The notes under the pieces: generated by a model
Told to the model about the DNA's origin: nothing
The model's database searches: none
What the model saw: only the letters and a program-made list of their open reading frames with translations
Origin: a virus
Strand: one strand, 5' to 3'
IMG/VR virus record: IMGVR_UViG_3300050821_006257
Location: 1 to 33,624 of that record
DNA length: 33,624 nt
In this document: piece by piece, positions 16,052 through 25,125 of the stretch
Layout of the letters: each line of letters opens with the position of its first letter
How positions within the stretch are numbered: the first letter of the stretch is position 1
Translations under genes and position numbers: made by a program

Positions 16052-16219
16052 TTAGCCGGACGTATATGCTCTATATTGTTCATCCCACTCACCATGCGGC
16101 ATGAATAGGGGCCACGATTCCTGCGGCTCTAAATGACGCTGCTCATTCCACCAGCGGACAAACTCATCGATTCTTTGCTTTTCCAGGTCTGCCCACACGC
16201 CAAGCGCCATGTCATCCAT
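16052..16219 (-). CDS. 55-aa hypothetical protein
   Basis: The frame starts with ATG at 16219, overlapping the stop of the AlpA-like gene, and ends at the edge of the AT-rich block. The product begins MDDMALGVWADLEKQRID and has a Trp/Glu-rich centre (RWWNEQRHLEPQESW). Tight overlap and amino acid composition support a true gene. No family is known. Confidence 0.6.
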   Translation of the reverse strand: MDDMALGVWADLEKQRIDEFVRWWNEQRHLEPQESWPLFMPHGEWDEQYRAYTSG

Positions 16220-16421
16220 TTGCTAAATACTCCTGCCTCGGAAGGGCGTCGATCCAAGCCTGCACCTCCCCACTGTCCCACCGTATCGGCGAATTCTCCC
16301 ACGGCCCTATGCGGCGAGGAAGCGGGAACCTGCCCAGGCGCATCATGCGCCATATTGTCGGATAGCTGATACCTACCATCCGCAAAACTTCGGGGCGCGA
16401 AAGCAAGCGCGTTTCGGTCAT
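16212..16421 (-). CDS. AlpA-like excisionase/regulator
   Basis: Read from ATG 16421, the product is 69 residues with an AlpA/MerR-type winged HTH. RPEVLRMVGISYPTIWRMM is the helix-turn-helix, and then RLGRFPLPRRIGP...IRWDSGEVQAWI matches the W-x-x-x-E-V-x-x-W end typical of the family. Such proteins activate integrase genes or act as excisionases. The ATG overlaps the stop of the gene before it (ATGA). It implies a temperate history, but no integrase is in the window. Confidence 0.75.
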   Translation of the reverse strand: MTETRLLSRPEVLRMVGISYPTIWRMMRLGRFPLPRRIGPWENSPIRWDSGEVQAWIDALPRQEYLANG

Positions 16422-16675
16422 GGCGCGGTAGCCTTGGCGATGGCGGTAGCAACGATACAAATAGGGGAATGTTTATGATCGTTCTCGGATTCCCCGTCCC
16501 ACCCGAAACAGGCTGAACACCGACCGCGTACATCAAATTCCACTACTTTCAGCGCCTCCAGCAAATCCGGCGCGGCGGCGATCAGGCGGGCGTTGGCGAT
16601 CCAAGAATCTAGGTCGCATTTCGGCTGCGCCAACCACGGCCCCGGTGTGTGCTTGCTCCCGCTCATCTCATTCAC
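16418..16675 (-). CDS. Small conserved phage protein (HTPGPW type)
   Basis: This 85-aa protein has the well-known phage block KHTPGPWLAQ near its N-terminus and ANARLIAAAPDLLEALK in the middle, found in many phage-encoded proteins of unknown function. It also carries CSACFGWDGESENDHKH, which may bind zinc. GTG 16675 or ATG 16666 could start it. It lies in the tightly coupled left operon. Confidence 0.7.
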   Translation of the reverse strand: MNEMSGSKHTPGPWLAQPKCDLDSWIANARLIAAAPDLLEALKVVEFDVRGRCSACFGWDGESENDHKHSPICIVATAIAKATAP

Positions 16676-18862: not shown

Positions 18863-18975
18863 CGGAACAGCACACACAAAGCAATGATCCACACCGCGAC
18901 CAATTCCATTGTGGTCATTGTCAGTAAATAGACGCGATACCAGTCAGCGCCGGGCGATTTGTGCGGGGCGGTCAT
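18859..18975 (-). CDS. 38-aa single-TM small protein
   Basis: The ATG at 18975 overlaps the end of the leading ORF (ATGA). The product has a polar N-terminus (MTAPHKSPGADWYR) and a helix of about 20 residues (MELVAVWIIALCVLFR is its second part). It is the second gene after the left promoter. It could be a membrane-acting early peptide. Confidence 0.5.
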   Translation of the reverse strand: MTAPHKSPGADWYRVYLLTMTTMELVAVWIIALCVLFR

Positions 18976-19106
18976 GATTGAGGCTCCCGGCCCGCAGCAG
19001 GCCAAGGCCGGCCCGGGGGACGTGGCACAGCGGGATGGTTCTGTGCCGTCACCGGCTTGGCGGTGCTGCTGCGGGCCGGAACTGGAAAGGAGATGAGGGT
19101 TGACAT
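18972..19106 (-). CDS. 44-aa Pro/Ala-rich first gene of left operon
   Basis: The ATG at 19106 follows GGGAG by five bases, and the product starts about 17 bases after the predicted left-promoter transcription start. It is Pro/Arg/Ala-rich (SFPVPARSSTAKPVTAQ, PRPPGRPWPAAG) and has no known family. Its stop overlaps the next gene by ATGA, which supports translation. The coding DNA also holds a 12-bp inverted repeat, so it may act as a leader as well. Confidence 0.45.
   Translation of the reverse strand: MSTLISFPVPARSSTAKPVTAQNHPAVPRPPGRPWPAAGREPQS
18989..19077. repeat. 12-bp inverted repeat with inner hairpin in left leader
   Basis: GGCCCGCAGCAG (18989-19000) is matched exactly by CTGCTGCGGGCC (19066-19077). 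Inside the pair a second stem, GGCACAG/CTGTGCC (19024-19030 and 19041-19047), leaves a 10-base loop. The repeats lie within the 44-aa ORF on the left transcript. They could form an RNA structure that influences early-gene expression, or be an accident of GC-rich coding DNA. Confidence 0.45.
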
Positions 19107-19129
19107 GGCCGCTCCCGAATGGTGGGAGC

Positions 19130-19159
19130 AATATAGTTCGCAAATCGCGAACACGTCAA
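19130..19159 (-). promoter_or_regulatory. Left early promoter (PL-like) with operator in the spacer
   Basis: On the minus strand TTGACG (19159-19154) and TATATT (19135-19130) are separated by 18 bases. The spacer holds the 17-bp operator at 19136-19152 (GTTCGC, five bases, GCGAAC). The same arrangement points right at 19522-19551. Predicted transcription starts near 19123 and enters the left operon. A bound repressor would cover the promoter directly. Confidence 0.75.
19136..19152. promoter_or_regulatory. Operator OL1
   Basis: A perfect 6-bp inverted repeat, GTTCGC-AAATC-GCGAAC, lies between the -35 and -10 of the left promoter. It is one of four related 17-bp sites flanking the repressor gene. 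Confidence 0.75.
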
Positions 19160-19166
19160 GCACAAA

Positions 19167-19183
19167 GTTCGCAGGACGCGAAT
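19167..19183. promoter_or_regulatory. Operator OL2
   Basis: GTTCGC-AGGAC-GCGAAT differs from the perfect palindrome at one end base. It starts 31 bases from OL1, about three helical turns, so dimers could contact each other on the same face. It lies upstream of the left -35 and near the repressor gene end. Confidence 0.65.
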
Positions 19184-19200
19184 TTATTTTGGGGGAAAGA

Positions 19201-19467
19201 TTATGCTGCGGTGCGCCGCATTTTCCGCAGGAGTTTTGTCATTCCTGGGTCAATATCGCCGTCGATGATCCAATCCAGCCGCAGGCGGAACCGTCTTTTT
19301 ATCGCCTGGGCAACTTCGGTAGTGATCGGTCGACGCCCCTTTTCAAAGGGATTGTAGACATTCCGCGCAACACAGATTTCTCGGCAAAAGTCGGCTTGGA
19401 CCTCATAGCCGAGGGCCAGGCGGGTCTCCCTTAGCCGCTTGCCCTGTTCCTCGAGGTGGTTTCCCAT
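19201..19467 (-). CDS. XRE-family repressor
   Basis: The product, read from ATG 19467, is 88 aa. It has an N-terminal HTH of XRE type (GKRLRETRLALGYEVQADFC, then CVARNVYNPFEKGRRPIT). The NVYNPFEKGRR block is typical of rhizobial small XRE repressors. It lacks the C-terminal cleavage/oligomerisation domain of lambda CI. The gene lies between left and right promoters, each containing palindromic operators, so it is the best candidate for the lysogeny repressor. It has no clear Shine-Dalgarno, and no clear own promoter was found. It may instead be the Cro-like member of the pair. Confidence 0.7.
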   Translation of the reverse strand: MGNHLEEQGKRLRETRLALGYEVQADFCREICVARNVYNPFEKGRRPITTEVAQAIKRRFRLRLDWIIDGDIDPGMTKLLRKMRRTAA

Positions 19468-19502
19468 AAGGGATATTTCAGCATTTTCCCCGCCCTCAGT
19501 CG

Positions 19503-19519
19503 TTTCGCGATTTGCGAAC
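19503..19519. promoter_or_regulatory. Operator OR2
   Basis: TTTCGC-GATTT-GCGAAC matches the operator consensus at all but the first base. It lies upstream of the right promoter -35, starting 26 bases from OR1 and close to the repressor start, so it may also tune repressor expression. Confidence 0.65.
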
Positions 19520-19521
19520 GC

Positions 19522-19551
19522 TTGACTTGTTCGCAGACTGCGAACTATATT
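19522..19551 (+). promoter_or_regulatory. Right early promoter (PR-like) with operator in the spacer
   Basis: TTGACT (19522-19527) and TATATT (19546-19551) are 18 bases apart. The spacer contains operator OR1. Its pieces match the left promoter almost base for base. The start ATG of the Cro-like gene begins only eight bases after the -10, so the mRNA probably has no 5' leader. Confidence 0.78.
19529..19545. promoter_or_regulatory. Operator OR1
   Basis: GTTCGC-AGACT-GCGAAC fills the right promoter spacer. Including the flanking spacer bases it is a perfect 17-bp palindrome (GTTCGCAG-A-CTGCGAAC), the most symmetric of the four sites, which suggests the highest affinity. Confidence 0.75.
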
Positions 19552-19558
19552 ACCGCCC

Positions 19559-19798
19559 ATGTCCGTTACGGTGGATTCAGCAATCGACGATTTGGGGGGC
19601 ACCGGCGCCGTAGCCGCGGCTCTCGACTTGCCCTTGTCAACAGTCAGCACTTGGCGTGCTCGACGCTTCATTCCGGCCCGCCGGTGGCCGGACATCGTGC
19701 GGATCGCCGCCGAAAAGTCCTGCAGCCACATCACATTTGATGCTTTGGCGGCCTTGCAGTTCGAAGCCGACCTCAACGGGGCCGAAACATGCCCCTGA
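19559..19798 (+). CDS. Cro-like HTH regulator
   Basis: This 79-aa protein has a HTH near residues 15-37 (TGAVAAALDLPLSTVSTWRA), where LPLSTVSTW is the recognition helix with the typical T-V-S-x-W end. RRFIPARRWPDIVRIA follows. It diverges from the XRE gene across shared operators and is first in the right operon, the usual place of Cro. The start codon is nearly at the transcription start (leaderless). It could bind the same operators in a different order of preference. Confidence 0.72.
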   Translation: MSVTVDSAIDDLGGTGAVAAALDLPLSTVSTWRARRFIPARRWPDIVRIAAEKSCSHITFDALAALQFEADLNGAETCP

Positions 19799-19952: not shown

Positions 19953-20180
19953 ATGCGTAAATCAGCGGGGAAGGCTGCGGACAAGTCAATCCGCAGCAGC
20001 GAACATCTGTGCGGCCAAAAATTCGGCGTGGTCGCAAAAGCGATCTGGCCAGAGAAAACAGCCTTTGAATTGTCGGCACTTACGGGCGCATCCTTGCGTG
20101 CCTGCGAGTATTGGCTGGCCGGTCAGCGCCATCCGAATGCCGCTGCGATCCGCGCGGTTCTCAACGAAATTCTGTCCTGA
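19953..20180 (+). CDS. Small HTH-like protein
   Basis: This 75-aa protein has a basic N-terminus (RKSAGKAADKSIRSSE). It then has a HTH-like region (FELSALTGASLRACEYWLAG, then QRHPNAAAIRAVL), which matches the pattern of YdaS/XRE-like phage regulators. GAGAGGG precedes the ATG. It lies in the right operon between the Cro-like gene and the tRNA. A regulatory role is inferred. Confidence 0.6.
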   Translation: MRKSAGKAADKSIRSSEHLCGQKFGVVAKAIWPEKTAFELSALTGASLRACEYWLAGQRHPNAAAIRAVLNEILS

Positions 20181-20190
20181 ATCTTCGAAT

Positions 20191-20265
20191 TGTAGGGTGG
20201 AGCAGCGGCAGCTCGTCTGGCTCATAACCAGAAGGTCGTGGGTTCGAGTCCCACCCCTGCAACCA
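20191..20265 (+). tRNA. tRNA-Met (anticodon CAT), CCA encoded
   Basis: A complete cloverleaf is visible. The acceptor stem has TGTAGGG paired with CCCTGCA, with one wobble. The D stem is GAGC/GCTC, the anticodon stem TCTGG/CCAGA has loop CTCATAA (CAT), and the T stem is GTGGG/CCCAC with loop TTCGAGT. A73 and an encoded CCA follow. The paired position 1-72 and the lack of three G:C pairs next to the anticodon argue against an initiator. It is an elongator tRNA-Met, or a tRNA-Ile with modified C34. It may boost translation or mark a past integration site. Confidence 0.92.
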
Positions 20266-20452: not shown

Positions 20453-21511
20453 ATGCACGGCACCAACCGTCCGCCATTCACCGCCGACGACATCCAGGAT
20501 GTCAGCGGCCCAAGCTGGCCGCGGCATACGCAATGCGCATGCAATCCCGGCTGCATGAGTTGCGCGCCGTCGTGCCGTAGCAGCGGGCCGGATAGGCCGT
20601 TTGGATTGCCCGCAGACAGTGTGGAACGTCGCGATTCGCTTGGGCGGCGTATTCGCCAAACACCTGAATTCACGCTTGAACAGATGGAGCGGATCACTCG
20701 GTACTATGCCGAGACTCCCGCATGGCAATTCGACCTATCAGAACTCGCCAAAGAAATAGGCAAAAGCCGCCACAATATCTGCCGCTATGCCCGTAGAGCG
20801 GGTTTGACCAATTTTAGTCGGCTGGCATCTGATAAGCAGAAGGCTGCTAAACGCCGCCCGCTCTCTGCAAAACACCGGCAGGCACTGCGCAAACCCAAGT
20901 GGCAAGACAAGCCGCATCCCCGCGGTATGGCTGGCAAGAAACACACCGATGCGACCAAGGCTCGCATTGCGGTAGCTTCCAAGACCGAATGGGCTACGCA
21001 GAAAACGTTCGGTGGGCCATTGGTATCGGAGGAGGCTTCGCATCTTCGCAGTGAACGAATGCGCGCTGTAATGGCACTTAGGCCGGCGCATAAAAATTAC
21101 ACCAATAGAAATGGCGGCCACAGGGAAGATCTTAACGGGCAATATTTCCGGTCATCCTGGGAAGCTAACTACGCCCGATATTTGAATTTCCTGATCAAAC
21201 TCGGCGTGGTCGAGCATTGGAAATACGAGCCGGATACCTTTTGGTTCAAGGGCATCAAGCGCGGGGTGACCAATTACAAGCCGGATTTCCGGGTGAAATT
21301 CAAAGGCGACGAAAAACTCGTTTACGTTGAAGTCAAAGGCCAGATCGTCCCAAAAGACAAGGTGAAGTGGCGGCGGATGAAAAAATACTATCCGCAGATC
21401 ATTTTGCAGATTGTTGCGTCCAAAGAATACTACGACATTCAGAAAAAATGGTCATCGGCTATCCCGACTTGGGAAAAGAAAGCTCCGTTCATTCGGAGTG
21501 CCCGCCGATGA
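20453..21511 (+). CDS. PD-(D/E)XK nuclease with HTH and NUMOD3-like modules
   Basis: Read from ATG 20453, the protein is 352 aa. The N-terminus has closely spaced cysteines (residues 28-41). Residues 93-117 form a HTH (SELAKEIGKSRHNICRYARR). At about 158-180 there is a NUMOD3-like segment (GKKHTDATKARIAVASK). The C-terminal 120 residues have a nuclease core: E237 in SWEANYARYL, PDF with D278, and EVK at 293-295. This resembles DUF1064-type phage nucleases or junction resolvases. An in-frame ATG at 20405 gives a longer form. The protein could be a homing nuclease or a recombination enzyme. Confidence 0.72.
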   Translation: MHGTNRPPFTADDIQDVSGPSWPRHTQCACNPGCMSCAPSCRSSGPDRPFGLPADSVERRDSLGRRIRQTPEFTLEQMERITRYYAETPAWQFDLSELAKEIGKSRHNICRYARRAGLTNFSRLASDKQKAAKRRPLSAKHRQALRKPKWQDKPHPRGMAGKKHTDATKARIAVASKTEWATQKTFGGPLVSEEASHLRSERMRAVMALRPAHKNYTNRNGGHREDLNGQYFRSSWEANYARYLNFLIKLGVVEHWKYEPDTFWFKGIKRGVTNYKPDFRVKFKGDEKLVYVEVKGQIVPKDKVKWRRMKKYYPQIILQIVASKEYYDIQKKWSSAIPTWEKKAPFIRSARR

Positions 21512-22107
21512 GCGACCCCTTCGCCGACCTGCCGCGCGGGCATTTTGCCGCCATTTTAGCGGACCCTCCTTGGCCATTCGCCACTTGGAGCCACAAAGGA
21601 CAGGGCAGAAGCGGAGAAGCACACTACAGCACGATGAGCCACGCCGACATAGAAGCCCTACCAGTGGCTTCCGTGGCGGCTCCTGATGCCGCTCTGTTCG
21701 TGTGGGTCGTTCAGACGCAAATCCCGGAAGCCGTCAGACTGGTGGAAGCATGGGAGTTTACCCTCAAGTCGCTGGCCTTCCTGTGGGTCAAAGGCGACGG
21801 GCTTCCAATGTTTCCCGACGATGTTGTGACTCAAATGGGCATGGGCAAATGGACCCGCGCCGAAACCGAACAATGCTGGCTTGCAACTCGCGGTAGCCCA
21901 AAGCGCCTAGCGGCGGATGTCCGGCAAGTGATGGATCAGCGGCGCCGCGAGCACAGCCGCAAGCCCGACTGCGTACACGAGCGCATCGAACGGCTGGTAG
22001 CCGGCCCATACCTTGAGCTGTTTGCCCGCCAGCGCCGCCCCGGCTGGACCTGCTGGGGCAATGAGGTAGGCAAGTTCGACCGGCCAACACTTGAGGCCGC
22101 CGAATGA
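21508..22107 (+). CDS. MT-A70 family adenine-N6 DNA methyltransferase
   Basis: This 199-aa protein begins with ATG at 21508 (ATGA overlap with the nuclease). The catalytic motif DPPW is at residues 19-22 (LADPPWPF), followed by HYSTMSHADIEALPV. Further on is FVWVVQTQIPEAVRLVEAWEF, and the C-terminus has a SAM-binding-like stretch (GPYLELFARQRRPGWTCWGNE) typical of MT-A70 methyltransferases of the phage type. These add a methyl group to N6 of adenine. No partner restriction gene is near, so its likely uses are anti-restriction or regulation. A GcrA-like gene follows one gene downstream. Confidence 0.88.
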   Translation: MSDPFADLPRGHFAAILADPPWPFATWSHKGQGRSGEAHYSTMSHADIEALPVASVAAPDAALFVWVVQTQIPEAVRLVEAWEFTLKSLAFLWVKGDGLPMFPDDVVTQMGMGKWTRAETEQCWLATRGSPKRLAADVRQVMDQRRREHSRKPDCVHERIERLVAGPYLELFARQRRPGWTCWGNEVGKFDRPTLEAAE

Positions 22108-24470: not shown

Positions 24471-24611
24471 GTGCCGAAGAACTACCTGCTGATCCGTGCT
24501 CAGCATCGGCAAAAGTGGATGTCGGAAATTGAATTTCTAATACAGGCCCAAACCCTGGAAGTTATCACCGCAGACCAACGCCGGATGCTGTTCCCCGATG
24601 CTGCAATTTGA
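24471..24611 (+). CDS. 46-aa hypothetical protein
   Basis: The GTG at 24471 gives MPKNYLLIRAQHRQKWMSEI, then FLIQAQTLEVITADQRRMLF. The composition is protein-like (Q/R/L balance), and the end overlaps the NusG-like gene start by 14 bases. A competing frame at 24398-24532 begins with a TTGA overlap but has a less natural composition. No family is recognised. Confidence 0.5.
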   Translation: MPKNYLLIRAQHRQKWMSEIEFLIQAQTLEVITADQRRMLFPDAAI

Positions 24612-25125
24612 CGAGCCGCGCCGGTGGTATGTGCTGCTCACGGAATCCGAGCGCAAGGCGGCGGTGTGGCTGGAGCGTAACCGGTATCTGCCGTACTGGC
24701 CCAAGTACAGCGGCCAGGAGAAGCTGGCTCGAGGTCGTCGTCGCGCGTGCCTGCGCTCGGTAATTCCAGGGTATATTTTCCTTCCGTTGGCCAACGGGTC
24801 TGACCCGGACTGGAAACACGTTTTGGGCACGCCAGGCGTGCGCGAGGTCATCCGTGACGGCGACCATACGCCGATATCCATCGGCGACCACGAAATTGAG
24901 CGTATCCGCATGATCGAAGCGGCGCTGAATGCCTCGCCGGTCGCTGCAGCCGCGGGTATCCCGTTCAAGGTTGGCCAACGTGTCCGCGTTCGCAGCGATA
25001 TGTTGTGGCAGTGGCAGGGTCAGATACTCGATATTGACAAGTCAGGTAAAATCAGCATAGAGGCTGACCTGTTCGGGCGCCGCACCAAGGTCGTGCTGCC
25101 GGTGTCTGAGATCGAGGCGATTTAG
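24598..25125 (+). CDS. NusG/RfaH-like transcription factor
   Basis: This 175-aa protein has an NGN domain at about residues 8-108, starting RRWYVLLTESERKAAVWLER and including PGYIFL (residues 57-62), which matches the NusG PGY-x-F/L-V strand. A KOW-like domain follows at about 123-175 (FKVGQRVRVRSDMLWQWQGQ, then ISIEADLFGRRTKVVLPVSE). NusG-type proteins bind RNA polymerase and change pausing and termination. A phage copy placed before the ATP-grasp and terminase genes may help transcription of the late genes. Sequence recognition is strong, but the target is inferred. Confidence 0.82.
   Translation: MLQFDEPRRWYVLLTESERKAAVWLERNRYLPYWPKYSGQEKLARGRRRACLRSVIPGYIFLPLANGSDPDWKHVLGTPGVREVIRDGDHTPISIGDHEIERIRMIEAALNASPVAAAAGIPFKVGQRVRVRSDMLWQWQGQILDIDKSGKISIEADLFGRRTKVVLPVSEIEAI

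Follow-up and report, generated by a model that had tools for sequence, protein, structure and literature searches.

The DNA analysed here is a viral contig, IMG/VR record IMGVR_UViG_3300050821_006257, whose 33,624 bases we call the window. It carries a capsid gene and genes for a terminase small subunit and a NusG-type antiterminator. Neither a terminase-large nor a portal gene was present among the window frames scanned, so the record is probably incomplete, and no integrase was found in it. At the DNA level, its similarity to known phages consists mainly of tRNA matches. The region studied, at positions 19130-19551, lies between divergent early operons and groups a small repressor gene, the start of a cro-like operon and a set of promoters and operators, as follows:

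18972-19106, minus strand: putative first ORF of the left operon, 44 aa, given by ORF position only; ATG 5 nt past the Shine-Dalgarno; no family match
19111-19129, minus strand: hairpin spanning the predicted PL start; left arm GCTCCC at 19129-19124, right arm GGGAGC at 19116-19111 holding the Shine-Dalgarno
19130-19159, minus strand: promoter PL, TTGACG at 19159-19154, N18, TATATT at 19135-19130; predicted start at about 19122-19123
19136-19152, no strand: operator OL1, filling the PL spacer; 0 mismatches to GTTCGC-N5-GCGAAC
19167-19183, no strand: operator OL2; 1 mismatch to GTTCGC-N5-GCGAAC
19201-19467, minus strand: CI-like, HTH-only repressor, 88 aa (HTH_3, 7.5e-5; the family profile matches P22 C2 at 2.7e-7 and the 434 repressor)
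19475-19503, minus strand: putative repressor promoter PRM, -35 ACGACT at 19503-19498, 17 nt ending in TGC, -10 TGAAAT at 19480-19475, then 7 nt to the ATG at 19467
19503-19519, no strand: operator OR2; 1 mismatch to GTTCGC-N5-GCGAAC; abuts the PRM -35, its centre at position -44 relative to the predicted start of PRM
19522-19551, plus strand: promoter PR, TTGACT at 19522-19527, N18, TATATT at 19546-19551; 7 nt before the cro ATG
19529-19545, no strand: operator OR1, filling the PR spacer; 0 mismatches to GTTCGC-N5-GCGAAC
19559-19798, plus strand: Cro-like protein, 79 aa (YdaS, 1.9e-6; P22_Cro, 1.4e-3; the family profile matches Xfaso-1 Cro at 2e-7)

Several other genes were recognized in the flanking operons. 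The left one contains an AlpA/excisionase-like gene (16212-16460). In the right one, a 75-aa ORF without family match (19953-20180) follows cro in the position of lambda cII, and further along are an MT-A70 adenine methylase gene (21367-22107) and the NusG/RfaH-like antiterminator gene (24598-25125; PF02357, 2e-11; phrog_6386).

Which of the two small HTH proteins plays the part of CI and which that of Cro had been left to inference in the initial annotation, and homology settles the matter: the minus-strand protein of 88 aa is CI-like, akin to P22 C2 and the 434 repressor, and the plus-strand protein of 79 aa is Cro-like, akin to Xfaso-1 Cro, P22 Cro and YdaS. The fold of the repressor model is closest to the DNA-binding domains of P22 C2 and the 434 repressor, with the weak E-values expected for a small HTH fold, and the model places its recognition helix at the predicted helix 35-42. 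As that annotation had also proposed, the repressor lacks a cleavage domain: its HTH match is the only one, and no cleavage or peptidase domain was matched in any of the 20 complete repressors of the family described below (86-113 aa, the window included). LexA boxes, sought as an explanation of induction, were absent from the window switch. Restriction C-proteins are also structural neighbours of the repressor, and the Cro-like protein, like 13 of the 19 Cro proteins of the family, matches the Pfam model YdaS, named YdaS_toxin. A stand-alone toxin-antitoxin or restriction-control locus with no role as a phage switch might be read from these two matches, but we consider it very improbable, given that the locus is flanked by the divergent early operons of a phage that encodes a capsid, a terminase small subunit and an antiterminator and that YdaS of CP-933P has been argued to act as Cro rather than as a toxin-antitoxin partner (PMC8630535).

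The operators and outward promoters form a nearly symmetrical arrangement. Both promoters, TTGAC(G/T)-18-TATATT, were found where the initial annotation had placed them, each with one operator in its spacer and a second beside it, giving four sites with 0, 1, 1 and 0 mismatches from left to right. The search for GTTCGC-N5-GCGAAC that it had suggested as a measure of rarity returned, at one mismatch or fewer, just these four sites in the whole record. The exact core TTCGC-N5-GCGAA is likewise present four times, whereas 300 dinucleotide shuffles gave 0.10 copies on average and never more than 1; for TTGAC-N18-20-TATANT, PL and PR are the sole occurrences, with 0.03 expected. The two promoter-operator units constitute a 32-nt inverted repeat that is 84% complementary.

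This layout is not peculiar to the window. When the repressor of the window was used as sole query, it retrieved no relatives in viral contigs, and no near repressor or Cro exists in any phage of the annotated collection; searching instead for the operator-core pair in viral contigs and genomes yielded matches in many viral contigs. The full layout is present in at least 20 further distinct loci of divergent phages, namely 19 viral contigs and, among the genome matches listed, one Bradyrhizobium retamae prophage, so that the lambda-like reading put forward earlier for the window is now supported by the same arrangement in 20 other places. All loci have a short HTH-only repressor between the operator pairs (reduced to a remnant in one) and a YdaS/P22-Cro-like gene outside them. 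There are only two operators per side in the window, as had been claimed, and in all 21 loci, and a third right operator (OR3) is absent. The two operators of a right pair are separated by 24-26 bp, in most loci by 26, and those of a left pair by 29-32 bp; in our reading, two promoters placed back to back share the right spacing and hold it constant, while drift is possible on the left. The OR1 and OL1 cores are perfect in 21/21 loci and degeneracy is highest at OR2, which fits an occupation of OR1 before OR2. A tyrosine integrase was found in 13 of the 17 virus records searched and about 2.4 kb from the switch in the B. retamae prophage. The right-operator pattern occurs in 1 of 392 family-level genomes, so cultured copies are rare. 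Besides this family-wide layout, PRM, the predicted leaderless starts and the PL hairpin had been missed in the initial annotation.

Variation within the family links the repressor to its operators. At the position of R35, with which the recognition helix begins, lysine or arginine occurs in 16/16 loci whose operators have an outer G, and proline, glycine or leucine in the 4/4 that lack it. By HTH alignment, R35 appears to correspond to Gln28 of the 434 repressor, the residue with which that protein recognises the outer base pair. This column is the only one in the repressor alignment that separates the two operator groups, although 6% of random label sets also yield some separating column; no column of the Cro alignment follows the outer base. 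Residue and base each change four times on the tree, and the supported independent pairs are three, too few to reach significance alone. Operator pairs with a spacing of 33-35 bp also occur in other phages and were treated as a class apart. The core TTCGC-N5-GCGAA is used in pairs 34 bp apart by other phages (L014, L063, L069 and L189), where a Pro-Asn-Thr recognition helix accompanies non-G outer bases in agreement with the same residue-base rule.

Between OR2 and the repressor gene, 19/21 loci share the geometry of a putative PRM, with a weak -35 of the form [AG]CGAC[AT] placed directly against OR2, a 17-nt spacer and a weak -10 followed after 7 nt by the ATG; in most loci a TGn precedes the -10, making it an extended one. 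The distance between the OR2 core and the repressor ATG is exactly 36 nt in the same proportion of loci (19/21), and the cro ATG is 7 nt past the PR -10 in 18/21. With ATGs this close to both -10 elements, the repressor and cro mRNAs are predicted to be leaderless. A weak inverted repeat also crosses the predicted PRM start (19468-19480) in several loci (13/20,000 permutations; p 0.054 after thinning for relatives). If the PRM start is taken at the repressor ATG, OR2 is centred at -44; the lambda OR2 is centred near -42. A weak -35 touching an operator at this distance would fit activation of PRM by the bound repressor. Alternatively, PRM might be constitutive and the repressor at OR2 would merely strengthen the repression of PR, as the extended -10 can work without an activator and the protein is devoid of the C-terminal cooperativity domain of lambda CI. 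We find this rather unlikely, because the weak -35 always stands against OR2 at the distance of a class II activator and because PaaR2 of CP-933P, at low level, enhances its own promoter and operon (PMC8630535).

One lineage provides a natural variant of the switch. L005 and L006, which match at 100% identity along about 8.3 kb and are counted as one locus, keep cro (70% identical to that of the window), PL, PR, OL1, OR1 and OR2, but only a 36-aa remnant is left of their repressor (L005:2987-3094; L006:6416-6526), the OL2 core has a mismatch and the PRM -10 does not have the usual form. That two metagenome contigs carry the same sequence speaks against a misassembly. No integrase was found in this 66-kb record, which likely represents a natural lytic line descended from a temperate phage. 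That operators have been kept together with cro in a line without repressor suggests that Cro uses these sites; its predicted binding also rests on position and homology. A tRNA gene directly behind cro (tRNA-Met at 20191-20265 in the window, tRNA-Thr at L005:3428-3503) was seen only in these two lineages, which are the two without recognisable integrase, and no tRNA was found in the other family loci examined.

On the far side of the repressor gene, at most 18 nt separate its stop codon from the OL2 core in 11/21 loci (18 nt in the window), and in three more the two overlap. No terminator fits in such a space, and transcription from PRM should therefore enter the left operon in most relatives unless bound repressor blocks it. 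Right after the PL -10, nearly every locus has an inverted repeat, which in the window forms the stem GCTCCC/GGGAGC with a predicted fold of -11.8 kcal/mol. The left arms differ among loci (18 distinct 7-mers) while their pairing is kept: own arms pair better than swapped ones (0/20,000 permutations), a result that still holds on a set thinned for relatives, and the same test at PR, used as control, was negative. We rejected an intrinsic terminator for the lack of a T-run after the stem and a protein site for the lack of sequence conservation. Positions 1-5 past the PL -10 are nearly all pyrimidines and a purine occupies position 6 or 7 in 20/20 loci, the same +1 position as at PR, so the left arm is predicted to end where the PL transcript should start. 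The right arm holds the Shine-Dalgarno that serves the first left gene. This Shine-Dalgarno has a predicted accessibility of 0.36 in the PL RNA and 0.02 in the read-through RNA, and is less accessible in the latter in all 20 loci where it can be identified; longer RNAs tend to fold more, which makes part of this drop trivial, and the value of 0.16 obtained with swapped left arms bounds that part.

The simplest reading of the hairpin is that it would guard the left operon against read-through. To our knowledge, such a guard has not been described for phage switches in the open library of literature that we searched; this would be the novel part of the switch, and its function is what we infer. 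It is possible, if somewhat short of an even chance, that the repeat belongs to a lambda-type switch but serves as an mRNA stabiliser, a polymerase pause or a DNA site for another protein. PL starts are predictions, and a start right after the -10 would put the whole hairpin in the PL RNA; moreover, longer stems leave residual pairing in that RNA. Variable arms with conserved pairing are, however, unlike a protein site, and the purine position fits a start just past the left arm. On balance, we regard it as an even call that the left lytic operon possesses a translation gate sensitive to the start site, with an anti-Shine-Dalgarno placed past the PL -10 but ahead of the start, in DNA that PL itself leaves untranscribed, such that the same DNA would be silent when read through from PRM and active when transcription starts at PL. 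If true, such a gate would make a terminator behind the repressor gene unnecessary, so that this gene could stop at its own operator, and would allow the switch to be reduced to two operators on each side. The PL hairpin makes this a clear prediction that can be addressed by mutation.

Taken together, we consider it highly probable that the region is a lambda-type immunity region, the lysis-lysogeny switch of a temperate-type tailed phage, working broadly as follows. The HTH-only repressor would bind OR1 and OL1 and, lying over the spacer that separates -35 from -10, block PR and PL. When bound at OR2, it would adjoin the weak PRM -35 and probably activate transcription of its own leaderless mRNA, like lambda CI at the OR2 of that phage. 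The Cro-like protein, made from a leaderless PR transcript, would compete for the same sites and favour lytic growth, and PRM, with no third right operator, would have no separate shut-off site. In most relatives, PRM transcription would run on into the left lytic operon, and the hairpin, forming only in the read-through RNA, would bury the Shine-Dalgarno of this operon's first gene; transcripts initiated at PL would lack the 5' arm and be translatable. The family offers 21 distinct sequence versions of a minimal form of the lambda-type switch, the most thoroughly studied genetic switch, one in a sequenced Bradyrhizobium strain and one in a natural line without repressor. It makes testable how little of the lambda design suffices, without OR3 and without a cooperativity domain, and also how a lysogen stops its repressor transcript from switching on lytic genes.

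With lambda, 434 and P22, the switch shares the gene order OL - cI - OR - cro, with an HTH repressor gene divergent from cro, PR and PRM transcribed in opposite directions, PL at the other end of the repressor gene, promoter spacers occupied by operators and OR2 beside the PRM -35. The lambda cI mRNA is leaderless, as predicted here for the repressor, and the Cro-like protein is related to P22 Cro. Those phages have three operators per side where there are two here, and their repressors have a C-terminal cleavage and cooperativity domain where this one is an HTH domain alone; here, cro is also predicted to be leaderless and a hairpin is present at PL. While it works like that of lambda, the switch is closest in its parts to the experimentally studied PaaR2/YdaS switch of CP-933P from E. 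coli O157:H7, which also combines an HTH repressor and a YdaS-type Cro on overlapping operators, a leaderless paaR2 mRNA with a mapped start, and PL and OL on the far side (PMC8630535). CP-933P differs in its four 18-bp palindromes, three pseudosymmetric operators per region, unrelated operator sequence and a toxin-antitoxin pair behind the repressor gene, where here OL2 follows the stop (PMC8630535). In PY54 immB, the cI and cro mRNAs have both been mapped as leaderless, as predicted here, but Cro binds a single operator and the operators are unrelated (PMC4488713). The Rhizobium phage 16-3-type c repressors of StopSmel and RcWaterboi, also from alphaproteobacterial phages, have an HTH domain about 33% identical but are longer (about 174 and 240 codons), and the stretches of these phages that were read contain no TTCGC operators. 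The nearest parallel to the proposed guard comes from outside phages. In IS10/Tn10, the transposase is shielded from outside promoters by an RNA structure that forms only upon read-through and hides the ribosome-binding site, one arm being missing from the RNA of its own promoter. The ribosome-binding site studied here is likewise predicted to be hidden in read-through RNA and open in own-promoter RNA, but the guarded item would be a phage early operon, protected against the phage's own repressor transcript.
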